From the NCBI GenBank assembly GCA_944322755.1, contig CALUPY010000003.1, positions 62,001 to 126,000 of the forward strand: a stretch of DNA of 64,000 nt, given 5' to 3'. The notes beneath the pieces were generated by a model, which searched no databases, was not told the DNA's origin, and worked only from the letters and a program-made list of their open reading frames with translations. This document shows, one piece after another, positions 54,256 to 64,000 of the stretch (positions within the stretch are counted from its first letter, which is position 1; every line of letters begins with the position of its first letter). The stretch is from Candidatus Gastranaerophilales bacterium. Lineage in GTDB: Bacteria; Cyanobacteriota; Vampirovibrionia; Gastranaerophilales; Gastranaerophilaceae. Position numbers and translations under genes: made by a program.

Positions 54256-57200
54256 CTACAGAGATTCAGTATTTCCTGTCTTTTTAACTTTCATATAGTT
54301 AATCATTTTTTCGCAAGCCTTGTCCGAATCGTCCGTGAATCTTATGTACGCACTGTTCTTTTTCGCAACTTCAACAACACCTTTTGCTGAGAATGGTACA
54401 TAATCATATTTTAAATCCACAATGACTTCTCTGTCCTTTGTCAGTGAGTCAGAAAGACTTACTGTCATACCATCTTTTGAAAGGTTTTTAACAGACACAA
54501 CGACCTGTTGTGAAGCAATTGACGACGAGCCCAGTACTTCGCCTTCCAAATCTTTTATTGTCCATGAAAGTCCGTCGAGTTCACTTCCGTGAAGAAGAAC
54601 CTGATTTCGCTTGTCAATCGTCGTAATCATTGTACCTTTTTCTTTTGATATGTTGTGTTCATGCCTGTGCGGATTGACAACCTTTCCACCACCCTGTTCG
54701 GGATTCGACGGAGGCGGGTTGTCCGGATCAGGCGGCCATGGATAATCAGGGAAGTCTGGATTATCAGGATTATCCGGATGGTCTGGATTGTCCGGGTCAT
54801 CAGGGTCATCAGGGTCATCCGGTCCAGGCCCAGGATCAGGTCCAGGGTCAGGACCGGGTTCGGGAATGGGCCCTACATCTATACTGTCATTCATATTGAG
54901 ATTGTATGAAACTTTCGTATTCAGAGTCCTGTCAGGAGCCTCTTCTCCGTAATGCCTGTCCTGACCAAACTCATGCGGAGTTTCTGTATTTATTGTCTCA
55001 ATTCTGTACATATTATTTTTGAACACAGCATGCTTGCCTGTGATGATACTGTCAAATACAAGGTCAGCAACAGCCTGTGGGTCAGCTTCATTTACCGCAT
55101 CGATATATGAATAATCAGCATACAGTTTGTCGAAATGCGCACCGTAAACAGCATCCCCGACAGAATCGCCTATGGTAATATTTACATCTAATGCACGTTT
55201 GTCATCAGCATCATATTCATAATACGGGTTCAAAGAGCCTTCTGTTTCGGGCTGTTCGTAATTCGCACCCTGTACATCAAAAACGAGTTTTTCACCATTT
55301 TGGTTTGCGTTGTGGAATCCAGTTGCATTCGGACGTTTTTGACCTGTTACATTGTCATACACCTGTGCGGTTATCGTATCAGCACGCAAGTTGACTTTGT
55401 TTCTTACATATGCGTTAAGGATGTCGAGTTTACTGTTCGGATTTTCAACACCGCGGTTTGCATCTTTAACTGTCAAAGAGACAGTTTTCGGAATAGTGTT
55501 TGTATCACGTTCAACTCGTCCGAGGTTTGTGATACTTAGTTTTTCATCGTTTACCGTAATCGAAATATCCTCAGGAGCAGCAATTTCATTTATCGATGTA
55601 TTTCCGTCCGAGACAATAGCGATTGAACCGGCTTTAGAGTATAACGAATCAATATTAAGTTCTGATGTACTGTTAAGATTAATATTTCTATTGGCCTCTG
55701 CAGTAAGCTTACCACCAGATGAAAGAGCATTAACACTGATATCTGCACCTTCTGAACCGGCAAGCATATAGAGTTCACCTGCTGTTGATATCTTGTCAGC
55801 GGTTATTGAACCGTTCAACGTGTTGAGCAATGCATTATCTGCATTCAAATCGGAAATATTCAAACCGCTGCCGTATCCTCTGAGGTTTAAGTCACCTGAC
55901 GCATCAGCGCTGAGCGTGCCCCCCGAGTTGATATGAATGGAATTAACCGTATTATCAAGAACAAAACCGTCCTGTTTTATGTTTCCAAGAGTAGAGTCAA
56001 GAACCCCGATATTGTTCCCCTCAAGAGTTACATCCCCGCCTGCTACGAGAGCAATTGAATCTGCAATCGCGCTCACTCCGTTAACAGAGCCGTTTACAAT
56101 ATTTCCATCGGAAGATACTCTCAAATTATCATCTGCAATAATGTTTCCGTCTGCTCTGTTGTGCGCAAGGTAAACACCGCCGGAACCGGAAGTCACAGAA
56201 ACATCGCTTCCTTTTATTACACCGTCAACATTGACTCTGTTCGTGCCGCGTACATTCGTTGTTCCTGTGCCGGTGATTTCAGCTGCGGATTTTACATCGA
56301 TATTTGCACCTGAAACTTCGACATTTGTGCCTGAAATTTTGCCGGCATGATTTATATCGCCTGTTGCGCTAACCGACATTGAACCGCCGGAAGCCAAAGA
56401 GGACGTGTCGGTCGTGGACAGACTGCCGGTTGTAACTTTTACACTGCTTCCGCTTACGGAGGTGCCGCTATTCATAGTTAAAGCACCTGTGTTTGTGAGT
56501 TCAACATCGCTGTCAGAAGTGATATTTGTGTTTTCATTCATATTTAAATTATTGGAACCAATACTTACTTTTCCACCGCCCGTTATATTAGCGCCAAGAT
56601 TTTTTAAACCTGAGATACTTACGGTTCCCGTGCCGTCAACGTTTCCGAAAATATCGAGATTCCCCTGAATATTTATGTTTCCGCCTGAAACAGTTCCGTT
56701 GAAGACAGAGGGAGCATTGGATGCGATTATATCAACGAGGCTGCTGCCTGTAATAGAAATATCCTGCGCAAGCTGTACTCCGTTCGCATTGAGTCTGACC
56801 TCACGGCCGGAGAGGTCTGCATTAACAACTGCCTCCTGACCGTTAGCATTTAAGTTCAGTACTCCTGCATTTTCAGCGCCCGTAGCCGAAACCTGAGCAT
56901 CAATAGCAAGTCCGAGACCGTCTATCGCAACATCGCTTCCTGTAATTTCTGAATCAATATCTACCAGTCCGCCTGCTGAATTTATATCAACAGCGCCGGT
57001 GCCAGTTATGGTATTTTTTACATTCAAACCGTTTGAATTTATTGTGATATTGCCGCCTTGAACAGTATGCACAATATCGAGAAGTTCTCCGTGTGTATCA
57101 AGAACAACACTGTTTGTACCGGAAATTGAAGCTCCAAGGTCAATGCCCTTTCCGTCTATAGCTACATCCGCTCCTGAAATTTCCGCGTCAACATCAACCA

Positions 57201-60200
57201 GTGCATTTTCAGAATTTATATCAACACTACCCGTGCCGGTTATCGTATCTTTTACATTTACGCCCAGTCCGTCTATGCTGATATCATTGCCTGAAACTTG
57301 TGCACCGAGGTCAACAAGGCCGTTTGCTGAATTTATATCAATATTGCCCGTTCCGGTCAGGGTGTCTTTTACATTGACACCTAGTCCGTCTATGCTGATA
57401 TCATTGCCTGAAACCTGTGCACCGAGGTCAACAAGACCGTTTGCTGAATTTATATCAATGTTACCCGTTCCGGTCAGGGTATCTTTTACATTGACACCTA
57501 GTCCGTCTATGCAGATATCATTGCCTGAAACCTGTGCACCGAGGTCAACAAGATCGTTTGCTGAATTTATATCAATGTTACCCGTTCCGGTCAGGGTGTC
57601 TTTTACATTGACGCCTGTACCGTCCACTGTAATATCTGTTCCTGTAACGCTGCCGTTAAGATTTGCCTGAGATGTTCCGGCATTTATACCGACAGTTCCA
57701 GAAGCAGCTATTTCTGAAGCATTTACACCTGTACCTGAAACTTTTACATCAGTTCCAGATACACGCTCATTCAGATTTGCAGCTTTTGTACCCGCGTTAA
57801 CATCAACTTTGCCAGATGCCTCAATTTCGTTCGCATTTACACCGGTTCCTGAAACTGTTATATCAGTACCGCTGACCTTTTTATTGAGATTAGCTTCCGA
57901 GTCTCCCGCGTTTATTTCAACAAAACCTGTTGCATCTATCAAGCCCGCACTTACGCCGTCCCCGTCAATACTGATGTTTCCGCCCGTAATATTGCCTTCC
58001 ATATCGACAAGAGCACCGGAAGAATTCACATCAATAGAGTTTGAACCATCCATTGTTCCTGTCATTGTAAGACCGTTTGTATTTAAAGTTATATCATCTG
58101 CTGCAATAGAGCCAGAGATATCTGTGGACTGACCGTTTGTGTTCACAGTAACAGAGGTACCGGACACAGAACCCGCAATATTTGCGCCGAGCGAGTCAAT
58201 ATCGACATTTCCGCCGATAAGGCTGCCGCCTGCTGCAACATCCAGCAGTGCTCCTGAAGAATTTATATCAAGAGCGGTCGTGCCCAACACACTGCCGCCA
58301 TTTGTAACGGACAATCCGTTTATATCAAGCGTAGTATTAACCCCGGAAACAGTTCCGGATACGGTCATTGCATTGTTATTTGTGTTTATACCAAGGATTG
58401 TGTCGGAAATCACGGAACCTGACACATTTAAAGCTCCGGATGTTATATTTACAGAATTTCCTACGATATTATTTAAAACGGAAAAATCTTTTCCGTATGT
58501 ATTTATTGAAACAGTATCCTCACCTGTGACATCACCACCCAGACTTACGCCATCGCCGTTTATGGTGATATCCGTACCTGATACTGCACCGGTAACAGAG
58601 GTTTTTCCAGTCGAATCAATATCCACGCTTCCGCCCTGGACATTTCCTGTGATATTTGTATCAGCAGAGGAATTCAGAGCAACCGAGGTTGTGCCGGTTA
58701 CATCTCCGGTTTTAATACCTGCGCCATCCACAGAAACGTCTGTTCCGGAAATCGTGCCGGCTTCGACTTTTCCTGTTGAATCAATATCTACGCTTCCGCC
58801 CTGAACAGTTCCCGTTATTTGAGTGTCTGCCTGTGAAGTTACTTTTACAGAAGTCGTGCCCGTGACAGAACCAACAGAGACTCCGTTTCCGTTCATTGCA
58901 ACTGTTGTGCCTGAAACGTTTCCGGTTACGTCGGTTTTTCCGGTTGAACCAATATTAATACTTCCGCCCTGTACGTTTCCTGTGATATTTGTATCAGCAG
59001 AGGAATTCAGAGCAACCGAGGTTGTGCCGGTTACATCTCCAGTTTTAATACCTGCGCCATCCACAGAAACGTCTGTTCCGGCAATCGTACCGGCTTCGAC
59101 TTTTCCTGTTGAATCAATATCTACGCTTCCGCCCTGAACAGTTCCCGTTATTTGAGTGTCTGCCTGTGAAGTTACTTTTACAGAAGTCGTGCCCGTGACA
59201 GAACCAACAGAGACTCCGTTTCCGTTCATTGCAACTGTTGTGCCTGAAACGTTTCCGGTTACGTCGGTTTTTCCGGTTGAACCAATATTAATACTTCCGC
59301 CCTGTACGTTTCCTGTGATATTTGTATCAGCTGACGAGTTCAGAGCAACAGAGTTTGTGCCTGTTACTCCGGCAGCATTTATGCCTGCACCGTCTACTGT
59401 GACGTCGACAGCTGATATGTCGCCTTTTAAGTCAACAAGTGCCTCTTCTGAATTTATATCGAGCAATCCCTGAGTTGTTATTGAACCGTTCTGCGCAAGT
59501 TCAAATCCGACTGCGTCAATTACTGCACTTCCTGCAGTGACTGTACCATTGATTGTCGTTTTTTCAGTATAAGAATTTACGGTGAGAGCATTTTGCGCGG
59601 TGACGTTTTCTAAAGTTACCCCAAGACCGTCTACATATACATTGGAACCGGATACTCCGCCCTGTGCATTTATTGCGGCAGCGAGAGAGTTAAGGTCAAC
59701 TGTTCCGGTGCCTGTTAAGGAGCCGGAGTTAGCTATATTTATGCCGTTTGCATCAATTGAAATATCTGTGCCTGTCACTGCACCTTTTATATCCGCAAGT
59801 CCTTGTGCCTCAATATCTACTGTTCCGCCTGAGAGAGTTCCGTTGATATTGGCAGTATCTGATGAGTTTATAGTAACGGAAGATGTGCCTGTAACATTAT
59901 TTGTATTAACTCCGTTTCCGGATATGCTGACATCAGTGCCGGAAACAGTTCCTGATACATCAGCAAGCCCCTCAGCATCAATATCTACTGTTGCGCCCTG
60001 AACAGTTCCCACTATATTCGAACCCGCAGTGGAGCCGATAATAACAGATGTCAGGCCTGATACATTATTTACATTTACGCCGTTACCGCTTATTGCAACC
60101 TGTTCGCCTTCAACAGAACCGGTTATATCTGCGAGCCCTCCCGCACTGATATCAATGTTTCCGCCGTTAACAGCGCCAGCGGCAGTAACGGTACCGGCGG

Positions 60201-63200
60201 AATCTATGTCAACAGAAGTTGTTCCGCTTACAGTACTTTGAACACCGAGATTTACTGTATTTGCGTCCAAATCCACTTCATTGCCGGTCAAAGAGCCGGT
60301 TATTTGTGCAGTTGAGTTTGCAGTATTCACTGTCAGCTTGTCCGAAGCCCCAAGAGAACCTGATACGTTTATTCCGGTATTTTCAGCATTCACTGTAGTG
60401 TTCGCCCCTGAAAGAGCGCCGGCTATTGTAGTTTGGCCGCCGGTATTTGTAACAGTCAGGTCAGCATTGTTTTTTATATCAGCGCCCTGCGCAATTTCTA
60501 TTCCTTTTGTGCCTGAATTTGTAATATTCAAATCCATGCCTTTAAGGTCGCCGGAGGCAGTGTTTTTAAAGCTAATACCGCCGTTTTGCGCTTCATTTTT
60601 AATATTGAATCCGGGAACAGGCGCCTGTGAACCGCCCTGCAGCACAGAACCCTTGTCTCCGCCCAGCGTTCCGGCGATAGTAATAGAGCCGTTTCCTGAT
60701 TTGTTTTCAATATTCATTTCCGCATAATTGTTGATTTTTGCGGTTTCATTTATCTGAATACCGAAATCATCTGTATTTCCGCTGCCGGCCACGCCAGTGC
60801 CTTCGTTAATTATATTAATTATACCGCCCGAGGCAATTTGGCCTTCCGGAACAATGTTTCCGTCATTGTCTACGAGTGTTCCGTCGCTTACCATACCGTT
60901 GTTAATAGTACCGTTTATGATAATACCGCCGCCTGCTTCACCGGAATCACCGCTGTTTTCAAGATTTATAACTCCGGTATGGGTAACTCCGTCTGCCTCA
61001 ACGCTAAAGTTCGACAGTGAAGCGTTCTCATCCACAATAAGGCTGCCCTGGCCGTTGCTGGAATATGTTATTTCATTACCCCAGTTTTCAAGTTTCATGC
61101 CTATAACAACATCTGCATCCGGGTCTTCAACTGCCGTATCACTAATGAAATCGGAATCTGATTCAAATCTGTTTATCAGTGTTCCGTACAATGTCATATC
61201 ACCGGCATGGTTCAGGAAACGAAGCACTCCGTGATTGTCCATCACACTGTCAGGAAGGAAATGCAACCCGCCGGGACCCCAATTTTCAAACACAACTTTG
61301 TTTTGGGAACCTCTGACAGTTCCGTTTATAACATGTGCAGTGATATTAAGTGCGCCGGCTCTGTTATTTACGGTCACTGTACTAGTTTCGCCGTCTGCGT
61401 CGTTGACGAGATTATTATTAATCTGACCGCCTATATTTGAACCGAGCTGTCCGTTATTTTCTATCGTGGTATTGCCTCTGTTATTTATTGTGCCGGATGT
61501 TGTAACACCGGTGTTTGCACCCGTATTCGAGGCAGTAACAGTTAAATCTTTTGCATTATCAATTGTTCCTGTAAGCGAAAGCAGTCCGTCGCCTCTGTTT
61601 TCTATATTTATATTTTCTGCAGCCGACACGTCATGAACGGTCATTGAACCTGTTCCTGTCGTGTTATTCACAACAGAAACTCCGCCTGCAGTGCTGTTCA
61701 AGGCACCTGACATCAAGACATCTCCGCCCGATGCAGAAATATTAATATTTCCGTTTCCTGTCACGGTTGTGCCGGCAGCCTGCGTTAAGCTTCCATTCGC
61801 TGCAATTATATCAACAGTCGTGCCAGCCGTGATATTTTCATTAATTGCTGCCGACGTTGCAGAATCAATATTTACAGATGTATCAGATGTAACACTTCCG
61901 TTCATTGTAACACTGCCAGTTGAATTTATATCAACGAGTCCGCCTGAAATTGCACCGCCAGCAGTGAAGTTTCCTCCGTTTGAGTTAAGTACAACATTCT
62001 GATAGCCTTGAATTTCACCTGTAGTCAGAGGGTTGTCATTAGAGGTTAAATAGATATTGCCGTTAGAACCCGCATTTTGATTTATAACAGCAGAGACGAC
62101 ACCGCCGGAGGAAAGTATGATATTGTTCGATGATGAACCGATGTTTCCTGATTCGGAGTTTAATGTAATGTCGCCGCCGGCGATAAGCGAATTTCCTGAT
62201 GTTGTCTGTGAAATATCATTCTGCGCGTTAACGGAAATATTTCCACTGCCGCCGGCATTAAGAACATCAGTCAGCTGGACATTTCCGCCTTCTGCATTGT
62301 TATTAACGCTGATACTGCCGGAGTTAGCTGTGACTTTTTGCAGTGTTACATTTCCGGTTGATTTGTTGGTGATAGAGATATCACCCTCCTGCGTGCTTTG
62401 TATAAGTCCGCCCTGAGTGATTCCGTCATTAGCGGCAAGGGTTATATCACCTGTTGCAGTAATATTTTTGGACATATCAAGATTTTTTGAACTGTCGAGA
62501 TTTATGTATCCATTCGCATTCAGGTCGTTTGTAAAGCTTATGTTTCCGGCATCTGCACCTGTAGATGAAATGTCGATATTTGTGCCCGCACTTATTGTGC
62601 CGAATGAAATATCAGTGTTCACACTGTTAATATTGACAGAGCCTGTTGTTGCAGTGACATCAACCCTTTGGCCTGCCTGAACATCGAGTTTGCTTTCCTG
62701 TGAACCTACGCTGTTTCCGGCTGTAAGGGTAATTGTTCCGTCTGTTTTAAGGCCAACATCGGCTGAAGCATCTTGCAAAATGTTATTTCCGGCATTTACA
62801 GTAATATTTCCCGCAGTAGCTTGCATAAGCGCGCCGATAGTGACATCGCCAGTCTTTGAATCAAGAGCAATGCTGGTACCGGCCGTTGTATCACCGTTCA
62901 TAAATATGCTGCCGCCGTTTGCCGTGACATTAAGCGTGCCGAGTTCTGCACCTATCGCGTTCAGAGTGATATTTCCGGTTGTATTTGAGACAGAAACATC
63001 ACCGCCTGTTGATGTTATAGTGCCTGAGGTCTGGTTAATTGCTTCCTGCGCAATTATAGTTACATCTCCGGATGCTGTCATGCTGTTTGAAACAGAGAGT
63101 CCTTTGCCACTTTCGACTCTGATGTAGCCCCCGTCGGTGGTAAGGTCATTGTTCATTACAATATCACCGTTTGAGGACAGGTCAATGTTTTGTGCGGCAG

Positions 63201-64000
63201 TAATTTCACCGAAGGTAACACTGTCCTCCGCGCCGTTTAAGTGAACAGAGCCGGTCGTTGCGTTTGCATTGATTGCAGTAGGCGAGCTGACGTCAAGTCT
63301 GTTTGTTGCTTCACCGATATTTGCGCCTTCAAGGGTAATTGCGCCGGTTGAAGAAACAGATTTGTCAAGGGTTGAGGACTGTTTTATGTCATTTACCGCA
63401 TCAAGGCTGACTCCGCCTGTGCCGCCTGAGATAAGTTCATTAATTTGGATATTCGAAGCAGTTGCACTGACAGAGTTTGTACCGGTAATCTGTGCATTGT
63501 TGGTAAGCGTTCCTGTTGCAGTAAGGTCAACATCATTTCCGCTCAATCCCGCCCCGAGAGTAATATCCGCAGCTTCAGCAGAAACCGTGCCTGAGCCGGT
63601 GATAGAAGCAGAGTTCGTGATAGTGTTATCAGCAATAAGTGTAATATCAGCGCCCGAGACTGCTGCATCAAAGTCAATGTCTGCCGCGTCTGCTTTTACT
63701 GTGCCCGTACCGGTTATTGCAGCAGTGTTATTCAGCTTTTGTGCAGCTGTTAAAGTGATATTTCCGCCTGATATTTCAGCATTTGCATTTATATCTGTGC
63801 CTGATGTCACGGATACATCGCCGCCTTGTACAGTATCTCCGATTGTTACGGAATTTCCGTCTATATCTACGCTGTTTGTACCGGTGATTGCCGCTGTATT
63901 TTCAAACGTTGTTGAAGAAGACAACGCTACGTCCCTGCCGTTTATTGCACCGCCTGCAGTTATGCTGTTTGCCTCAATATCAACAGTTCCGGTTCCTCTA
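54256..64000 (-). CDS. Giant beta-solenoid surface protein with Pro/Asp stalk and PilZ-like tail (5' end outside window)
   Basis: The minus-strand frame is open from the right edge (in frame at 63999, …RGTGTVDIEANSITAGGAINGRDVALSSS…) to the stop at 54256-54258, giving about 3,247 residues here with the start missing. Nearly all of it is short Gly/Thr/Ser/Asn/Asp/Val repeats of about 20 residues (VTGTTSVALNSSADTNITG…), as in filamentous-haemagglutinin-type beta-helices. A non-repetitive part (about 55.0-55.6 kb) is followed by a Pro/Asp/Asn linker (54687-54876) and a final 110-residue domain with VSVKNLSKDGMTV (N-x-S-x-x-G), like PilZ. Only one cysteine was seen. Probably exported and adhesive; similarity to LktA-type filamentous adhesins is from memory. 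Confidence 0.8.
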   Translation of the reverse strand, partial: RGTGTVDIEANSITAGGAINGRDVALSSSTTFENTAAITGTNSVDIDGNSVTIGDTVQGGDVSVTSGTDINANAEISGGNITLTAAQKLNNTAAITGTGTVKADAADIDFDAAVSGADITLIADNTITNSASITGSGTVSAEAADITLGAGLSGNDVDLTATGTLTNNAQITGTNSVSATASNIQINELISGGTGGVSLDAVNDIKQSSTLDKSVSSTGAITLEGANIGEATNRLDVSSPTAINANATTGSVHLNGAEDSVTFGEITAAQNIDLSSNGDIVMNNDLTTDGGYIRVESGKGLSVSNSMTASGDVTIIAQEAINQTSGTITSTGGDVSVSNTTGNITLNAIGAELGTLNVTANGGSIFMNGDTTAGTSIALDSKTGDVTIGALMQATAGNITVNAGNNILQDASADVGLKTDGTITLTAGNSVGSQESKLDVQAGQRVDVTATTGSVNINSVNTDISFGTISAGTNIDISSTGADAGNISFTNDLNANGYINLDSSKNLDMSKNITATGDITLAANDGITQGGLIQSTQEGDISITNKSTGNVTLQKVTANSGSISVNNNAEGGNVQLTDVLNAGGSGNISVNAQNDISQTTSGNSLIAGGDITLNSESGNIGSSSNNIILSSGGVVSAVINQNAGSNGNIYLTSNDNPLTTGEIQGYQNVVLNSNGGNFTAGGAISGGLVDINSTGSVTMNGSVTSDTSVNIDSATSAAINENITAGTTVDIIAANGSLTQAAGTTVTGNGNINISASGGDVLMSGALNSTAGGVSVVNNTTGTGSMTVHDVSAAENINIENRGDGLLSLTGTIDNAKDLTVTASNTGANTGVTTSGTINNRGNTTIENNGQLGSNIGGQINNNLVNDADGETSTVTVNNRAGALNITAHVINGTVRGSQNKVVFENWGPGGLHFLPDSVMDNHGVLRFLNHAGDMTLYGTLINRFESDSDFISDTAVEDPDADVVIGMKLENWGNEITYSSNGQGSLIVDENASLSNFSVEADGVTHTGVINLENSGDSGEAGGGIIINGTINNGMVSDGTLVDNDGNIVPEGQIASGGIINIINEGTGVAGSGNTDDFGIQINETAKINNYAEMNIENKSGNGSITIAGTLGGDKGSVLQGGSQAPVPGFNIKNEAQNGGISFKNTASGDLKGMDLNITNSGTKGIEIAQGADIKNNADLTVTNTGGQTTIAGALSGANTTVNAENTGINVSGSLGASDKLTVNTANSTAQITGSLTGNEVDLDANTVNLGVQSTVSGTTSVDIDSAGTVTAAGAVNGGNIDISAGGLADITGSVEGEQVAISGNGVNVNNVSGLTSVIIGSTAGSNIVGTVQGATVDIDAEGLADVSGTVSGTDVSISGNGVNTNNVTGTSSVTINSSDTANINGTLSGGTVDIEAQGLADIKGAVTGTDISIDANGINIANSGSLTGTGTVDLNSLAAAINAQGGVSGSNVYVDGLGVTLENVTAQNALTVNSYTEKTTINGTVTAGSAVIDAVGFELAQNGSITTQGLLDINSEEALVDLKGDISAVDVTVDGAGINAAGVTGTNSVALNSSADTNITGNVQGGSINIGSTGKTDVTGNVSGTTVAMNGNGVSVGSVTGTTSVKVTSQADTQITGTVQGGSVDIDSTGKVEAGTIAGTDVSVDGAGIKTGDVTGTTSVALNSSADTNITGNVQGGSINIGSTGKTDVTGNVSGTTVAMNGNGVSVGSVTGTTSVKVTSQADTQITGTVQGGSVDIDSTGKVEAGTISGTDVSVDGAGIKTGDVTGTTSVALNSSADTNITGNVQGGSVDIDSTGKTSVTGAVSGTDITINGDGVSLGGDVTGEDTVSINTYGKDFSVLNNIVGNSVNITSGALNVSGSVISDTILGINTNNNAMTVSGTVSGVNTTLDINGLSVTNGGSVLGTTALDINSSGALLDVAAGGSLIGGNVDIDSLGANIAGSVSGTSVTVNTNGQSTDISGSIAADDITLNTNGLTMTGTMDGSNSIDVNSSGALVDMEGNITGGNISIDGDGVSAGLIDATGFVEINAGDSEANLNKKVSGTDITVSGTGVNANEIEASGKVDVNAGTKAANLNERVSGTDVKVSGTGVNASEIAASGTVGINAGTSQANLNGSVTGTDITVDGTGVNVKDTLTGTGNIDINSANDLVDLGAQVSGNDICIDGLGVNVKDTLTGTGNIDINSANGLVDLGAQVSGNDISIDGLGVNVKDTLTGTGNIDINSANGLVDLGAQVSGNDISIDGLGVNVKDTITGTGSVDINSENALVDVDAEISGADVAIDGKGIDLGASISGTNSVVLDTHGELLDIVHTVQGGNITINSNGLNVKNTITGTGAVDINSAGGLVDIDSEITGSDVAIDGLGLAIDAQVSATGAENAGVLNLNANGQEAVVNADLSGREVRLNANGVQLAQDISITGSSLVDIIASNAPSVFNGTVSGGNINIQGNLDIFGNVDGTGTVSISGLKNLGANITGGGKVSIGSNNLNMNENTNITSDSDVELTNTGALTMNSGTSVSGSSVKVTTGSLSTTDTSSLASGGSMSVSATGDINHAGKISGTNVEVSGANIDVKSAAEITGTGTTNVRGTNRVNVDGVIKGSDVSVTSGSGGVYLAHNRADGNIIADDNLRVSSDGNIVNGSVNGVSAIADSIALVAGGDVTLEGNNIGVLDSTLGNIKQDGFVLDNTVNSIHINSGGTLSADASGDLNLRGYGSGLNISDLNADNALLNTLNGSITADKISTAGELYMLAGSEGADISVNALSSGGKLTAEANRNINLNSTSELNIDSLYSKAGSIAIVSDGNTSINEIAAPEDISITVNDEKLSITNLGRVERDTNTIPKTVSLTVKDANRGVENPNSKLDILNAYVRNKVNLRADTITAQVYDNVTGQKRPNATGFHNANQNGEKLVFDVQGANYEQPETEGSLNPYYEYDADDKRALDVNITIGDSVGDAVYGAHFDKLYADYSYIDAVNEADPQAVADLVFDSIITGKHAVFKNNMYRIETINTETPHEFGQDRHYGEEAPDRTLNTKVSYNLNMNDSIDVGPIPEPGPDPGPDPGPGPDDPDDPDDPDNPDHPDNPDNPDFPDYPWPPDPDNPPPSNPEQGGGKVVNPHRHEHNISKEKGTMITTIDKRNQVLLHGSELDGLSWTIKDLEGEVLGSSSIASQQVVVSVKNLSKDGMTVSLSDSLTKDREVIVDLKYDYVPFSAKGVVEVAKKNSAYIRFTDDSDKACEKMINYMKVKKTGNTESL
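57301..57651 (-). repeat. Tandem 117-bp repeats inside the giant gene
   Basis: TGCACCGAGGTCAACAAG recurs at 57301, 57418 and 57535, exactly 117 bp (39 residues) apart. Each unit encodes VKDTLTGTGNIDINSAN, then LVDLGAQVSGNDISIDGLGV. The copies are nearly identical at DNA level; a more divergent unit precedes at about 57184. Confidence 0.9.
58648..59340 (-). repeat. Tandem 333-bp duplication inside the giant gene
   Basis: TGTGATATTTGTATCAGC starts at 58648, 58981 and 59314, exactly 333 bp (111 residues) apart. The first two units differ at only a few bases and the third is partial. The very low divergence points to a recent duplication or gene conversion. Confidence 0.92.

Follow-up and report, generated by a model that had tools for sequence, protein, structure and literature searches.

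What could a PilZ domain do at the end of a giant adhesin that appears to be exported? PilZ is normally a cytosolic sensor of cyclic di-GMP (c-di-GMP), and c-di-GMP is itself held to be cytosolic. The question is raised by a stretch of 64,000 nucleotides from a Candidatus Gastranaerophilales bacterium (the window, positions 62001-126000 of contig C3 in the 2.19-Mb, 43-contig genome G000), whose last part encodes a giant repeat protein. This protein proved to be a two-partner secretion (TPS) adhesin ending in a PilZ-like domain, an architecture found in many relatives. We give a probability of about 0.5 to the reading that the tail is a folded C-terminal envelope anchor, which in most members probably binds a ligand and in the window copy is degenerate.

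The gene is a single frame on the minus strand, with its stop at 54256 and open from 63999, so that 3,247 residues are encoded inside the window. The initial annotation had described a giant repeat protein with a Pro/Asp/Asn-rich linker and a C-terminal domain containing NLSKDG, all of which were confirmed in this frame. On the same contig the frame extends to an ATG at C3:133058, 7,058 bases beyond the window end, which brings the full-length protein to 5,600 residues. This ATG is preceded by GGGAATTAT. The protein starts with a signal-peptide-like N-terminus, MRNLLEYKGSAVFAKRVIASVLVFMLLNFEAVFA, behind which an LktA-type TPS domain matches NF012204 (LktA-family filamentous adhesin) at E=6.7e-35. 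Recovery of the 5′ end thus bore out the apparent export of the adhesin, and the signal peptide and N-terminal TPS domain are those expected of a TpsA. The order of its domains is signal peptide, TPS domain, repetitive beta-helix, Pro/Asp stalk and C-terminal PilZ. The central stretch consists of thousands of G/T/N/S-rich repeat residues, including near-identical tandem units of 117 bp (57212-57624) and 333 bp (58600-59367), and it is from these repeats that we infer a beta-helix. Upstream of the gene, the contig end also shows intergenic repeats of roughly 130-140 bp that are nearly identical (L004:7500-8141, end of G000:C3). The genomes used here are largely assemblies of uncultured bacteria, in which repeats may be collapsed.

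The PilZ domain was detectable only when the tail was scanned by itself: Pfam and NCBIfam scans of the entire 3,247-residue window part gave nothing useful and missed it. The isolated tail matched Pfam PilZ (PF07238) with E=0.0024 and 18.6 bits, below the cut-off of 22.5, and TIGR02266 with E=0.0034, while PDB sequence profiles gave weak PilZ matches (E 0.075-1.9). An AlphaFold2 (AF2) model of the tail is a beta barrel with a C-terminal helix (mean predicted local distance difference test score, pLDDT, 84; predicted template modelling score, pTM, 0.76). Its first 34 PDB fold matches were all of PilZ type (E 8e-5 to 0.04, probability 0.99-1.00); the top one is the uncharacterised Lpg0364, and most are named PilZ proteins, c-di-GMP receptors or their kin (CesA/BcsA, YcgR, MotI, MrkH, MapZ, VCA0042). 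A PilZ fold for this domain is therefore supported by the sub-threshold Pfam match, by the model with its PDB matches and by homology to other PilZ tails, as had been proposed from the letters alone. Neither an autotransporter barrel nor a sorting motif, which would have offered another explanation of the C-terminus, was seen in the protein.

The architecture is not peculiar to this genome. A PilZ search of 117 genomes of the family gave many matches within frames of 900-6,242 residues. When 14 tails were searched against 386 genomes of the phylum, 143 were matched, nearly all from the same family; a minority of these were weak (E around 1e-4 to 1e-8) and are probably ordinary PilZ proteins. 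Outside the family, the same search matched two genomes from a second family of the order and, weakly, three elsewhere. Where relatives are named, they are Candidatus Gastranaerophilales, Cyanobacteriota of the gut that do not photosynthesise. Gastranaerophilales-type tails are also encoded in a few records labelled Fusobacterium sp. or Heliobacteriaceae (L137, L167, L147), labels that are probably wrong. Among the loci from the phylum scan, a TPS-type N-terminus and a PilZ tail occurred together in 59 long frames, and every long PilZ frame that shows no TPS N-terminus extends past its locus on the 5′ side. In six frames the TPS N-terminus occurred without PilZ, three of them 3′-complete and three cut by a contig or locus end. 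LktA-type adhesin frames of 862-1,229 residues without a PilZ tail were also noted beside PilZ-bearing ones (L126:3559-6180, L129:3587-6172, L173:14555-18241). PilZ is C-terminal in relatives of many genera, mostly behind an acidic or Pro-rich stalk made of (DT)n, (DA)n, (DP)n or PPPPGDDDDD and reaching about 390 residues. An assembly artefact was rejected, as the fusion is present in many separately assembled genomes with differing adhesin lengths.

In known PilZ complexes the RxxxR motif contacts the ligand. Among 112 distinct adhesin tails, with pairwise identities down to 15%, it was kept in 111 (the window copy being the exception), and [DN]xSxxG was present in all 112. All five signature columns lie within the 14 most conserved of 110; the chance of this was computed as 1.6e-5, a value that is indicative, since the effective sequences number only about 10 at 62% identity. 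The AF2 model of a canonical tail is also a PilZ fold, and it matches the c-di-GMP complexes of Alg44 and MapZ. Tail conservation suggests a binding site. The window copy departs from the full c-di-GMP receptor signature (RxxxR plus [DN]xSxxG) in having RxxxL with an intact NLSKDG: of the two Arg only the first is retained, Leu standing in place of the second (KRNQVL), which justifies the doubt expressed about this half in the initial annotation. The genus is represented by three other genomes, whose orthologues show 68-78% tail identity and likewise lack the second Arg (KRNQVLL, KRNQTLL, KRNLAIA). The loss is therefore a trait of the lineage and not a sequencing error. To judge from these alignments, the window copy is a degenerate member of a widespread architecture whose other members mostly hold the full signature.

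Signal-peptide-like N-termini were found in 57 of 57 adhesins and 8 of 8 short PilZ proteins, versus 3 of 20 cytosolic PilZ proteins and 5 of 57 internal controls, counts that are indicative, the rule being home-made and devised after viewing the sequences. It replaced, with controls, a plain hydropathy cut that was too strict (18/57). In several genomes, the adhesin gene is directly followed by a short gene for a protein of 167-247 residues, in which a signal peptide and a linker precede the same PilZ, with both RxxxR and [DN]xSR[GS]G. In two genomes of the other family of the order (L194:9771-12123, L195), the gene for a signal-peptide PilZ protein of 180-184 residues is transcribed divergently from a POTRA_2/ShlB TpsB gene; in L194, the surrounding 20 kb showed no long adhesin frame. 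In a tree, a 100/100 branch separates the exported PilZ domains from the YcgR-type ones, ordinary examples of which are also present in the family. The short forms appear at two separate places; the branch of the window row is very long and its exact position unsure. Since short signal-peptide proteins beside adhesin genes or, in the other family, beside a TpsB gene have this PilZ subfamily too, all sequence indications are of a PilZ clade that is exported and linked to TPS, set apart from cytosolic proteins of the YcgR type.

The last 400 residues of 57 relatives contain no segment hydrophobic enough for a membrane span, and a transmembrane tail was rejected on this ground. Over the last 200 residues, the same number of proteins have 0 or 1 Cys; with no Cys pair, a Cys-loop anchor of the HMW1/HxuA/CdrA type was also rejected. 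The initial annotation had left two outcomes side by side, a tail retained in the cytosol or an extracytoplasmic use of the fold. The missing membrane segment and the short signal-peptide PilZ proteins lean towards the latter and away from the former.

The source genome encodes a second giant TPS adhesin of 6,232 residues (G000:C4:35598-54296, covered by L005 and L006). Its TPS domain matches NF012204 with E=3.9e-37 and its C-terminal PilZ reaches 38.3 bits, over the Pfam cut-off, with a complete signature (KRQNIRF and DISKGG). These two proteins are the only NF012204 matches of the genome, and they form a natural pair for comparison. A TpsB (ShlB/Omp85) gene adjoins the C4 paralogue in divergent orientation (L005). 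In relatives, TpsB lies about 100 bp upstream of the adhesin on the same strand (L050 and L057), and TpsB genes are near the adhesin in L040 and L046. The genome also has seven GGDEF matches, and for this reason c-di-GMP is probably made by the organism.

TPS proteins traverse the outer membrane with the N-terminus leading; some retain a C-terminal periplasmic anchor, which is a disulfide loop in HMW1 and HxuA and a hook in CdrA (PMC5422565; PMC8472254). By analogy with this role, we propose that the adhesin would most likely be threaded N-terminus first through the outer-membrane TpsB pore, and that the PilZ domain would fold on the periplasmic side, where, being unable to pass the pore, it would anchor the protein while the flexible stalk occupies the pore. 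In most relatives, since the c-di-GMP signature is kept, ligand binding would probably stabilise the anchor or gate its release. The window paralogue has lost the second Arg and for that reason would probably be a ligand-independent anchor or respond to a changed ligand. The recurrence of the architecture in dozens of related gut bacteria, with the predicted sensor site intact, suggests that PilZ was co-opted for holding or controlling adhesins beyond the cytoplasm. Some facts sit uneasily with the anchor reading. A conserved site outside the cytoplasm needs another source of c-di-GMP or another ligand. No TpsB gene adjoins the window gene, the two of the source genome being the one beside the C4 paralogue and another at C17. 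The PilZ anchor is not obligatory, as some NF012204 proteins are without it, and the AF2 models were built on an alignment of relatives already matching PilZ.

The near-perfect conservation of the signature would also be expected if sensing took place in the cytosol, in cis. The PilZ tail, emerging last, would bind c-di-GMP, fold in the cytosol and stall Sec, so that the adhesin is tethered at high c-di-GMP and freed when the level is low. The seven GGDEF matches fit this scheme, as does the absence of the Lap route (control of the Lap type was rejected, the periplasmic protease LapG being found in 0 of 60 genomes). Moreover, c-di-GMP keeps two TPS proteins cell-bound, CdrA and, by an unknown route, ExlA (PMC8472254). 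We nevertheless consider it unlikely: the short signal-peptide proteins carry the same PilZ clade and have nothing to tether, a stalled giant would block Sec, and some linkers (L050/L057) look short for reaching from Sec across the periplasm and through TpsB, although unfolded coils might ease this. A more ambitious proposal, which we hold only tentatively, is that Gastranaerophilales adhesins are their own c-di-GMP receptors, the fused PilZ directly setting retention versus release without LapD/LapG, and the short exported PilZ proteins acting on the same TpsB pores.

The short proteins agree with a PilZ domain that is fully exported and displayed outside, where it would bind c-di-GMP present outside cells or a different anionic ligand, supplied by the host or by neighbours that have lysed; added extracellular c-di-GMP does alter adherence and biofilm in Campylobacter jejuni (PMC9608569). 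A folded C-terminal barrel is, however, expected to halt in the TpsB pore, and no receptor or signalling partner is known, which makes this doubtful as well. Finally, PilZ might be only a structural or protein-contact module, for example towards the TpsB POTRA domains, with the signature kept for structural reasons. The window lineage dropped the second Arg yet retained the domain in four genomes, and non-binding PilZ proteins are known (PMC10333796). Retention of the ligand-contacting Arg pair in nearly all of such divergent tails makes this explanation very improbable. Coordinates of the features discussed are collected in Table 1.

Table 1. Positions of the features of the window gene, and of short exported PilZ genes in relatives.
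Feature	Position	Strand	Basis
3′ part of the 5,600-residue TPS adhesin gene	54256..64000	-	open frame; N-terminus beyond the window matches NF012204
Predicted repetitive beta-helix (solenoid) region, lower border approximate	55200..63999	-	sequence read directly, tandem units
Pro/Asp/Asn-rich stalk, about 54 residues	54706..54867	-	sequence
Putative C-terminal PilZ-fold domain, 125 residues	54259..54633	-	Pfam, TIGR02266, AF2 model, PDB fold matches, homology to other tails
Degenerate first half of c-di-GMP signature, K-R-N-Q-V-L (relatives K-R-x-x-x-R)	54595..54612	-	tail alignment
Intact second half of c-di-GMP signature, N-L-S-K-D-G	54469..54486	-	sequence, tail alignment
Short signal-peptide PilZ proteins directly after adhesin genes	L143:5978-6625, L148:5835-6527, L151:961-1611, L159:1068-1808, L163:15879-16379, L198:9970-10485

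PilZ has so far been treated as a cytosolic receptor, and an exported, adhesin-linked clade with a kept signature departs from that. If the proposals above are true, an adhesin is under the control of c-di-GMP in cis, or else this nucleotide or a similar ligand is sensed beyond the cytoplasm. The adhesins are candidates for the attachment of non-photosynthetic gut Cyanobacteriota, and they are relevant to the unexplained retention of ExlA, a TPS protein, on the cell surface by c-di-GMP. No paper on such a PilZ-adhesin fusion was found in a library of open-licence PubMed Central papers, which is weak evidence of novelty.

Among known systems, the closest are the TPS adhesins with periplasmic anchors (HMW1, HxuA, CdrA), which share the signal peptide, the N-terminal TPS domain, the long beta-helix (predicted here), a TpsB partner (to judge from gene neighbours of the paralogue and of relatives) and a C-terminal module placed so as to stop in the pore (PMC5422565; PMC8472254). 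Their anchors are small disulfide loops or hooks, whereas here a PilZ barrel follows an acidic stalk, with no Cys pair. The N-terminal domain matches the LktA family NF012204 well above cut-off; that model, of 153 positions, covers only this domain, and the PilZ C-terminus is not part of it. With the PilZ receptors YcgR, Alg44, MapZ and BcsA the fold is shared, and in the relatives also the full RxxxR plus [DN]xSxxG. Unlike in those receptors, PilZ here ends a protein with a Sec signal, and the window copy is without the second Arg. The control of LapA and CdrA by LapD/LapG likewise links c-di-GMP to the retention of giant adhesins (PMC8472254, PMC10333796), but in those systems a distinct protein of the inner membrane serves as receptor and acts via a protease, whereas here the receptor-like domain lies within the adhesin itself.
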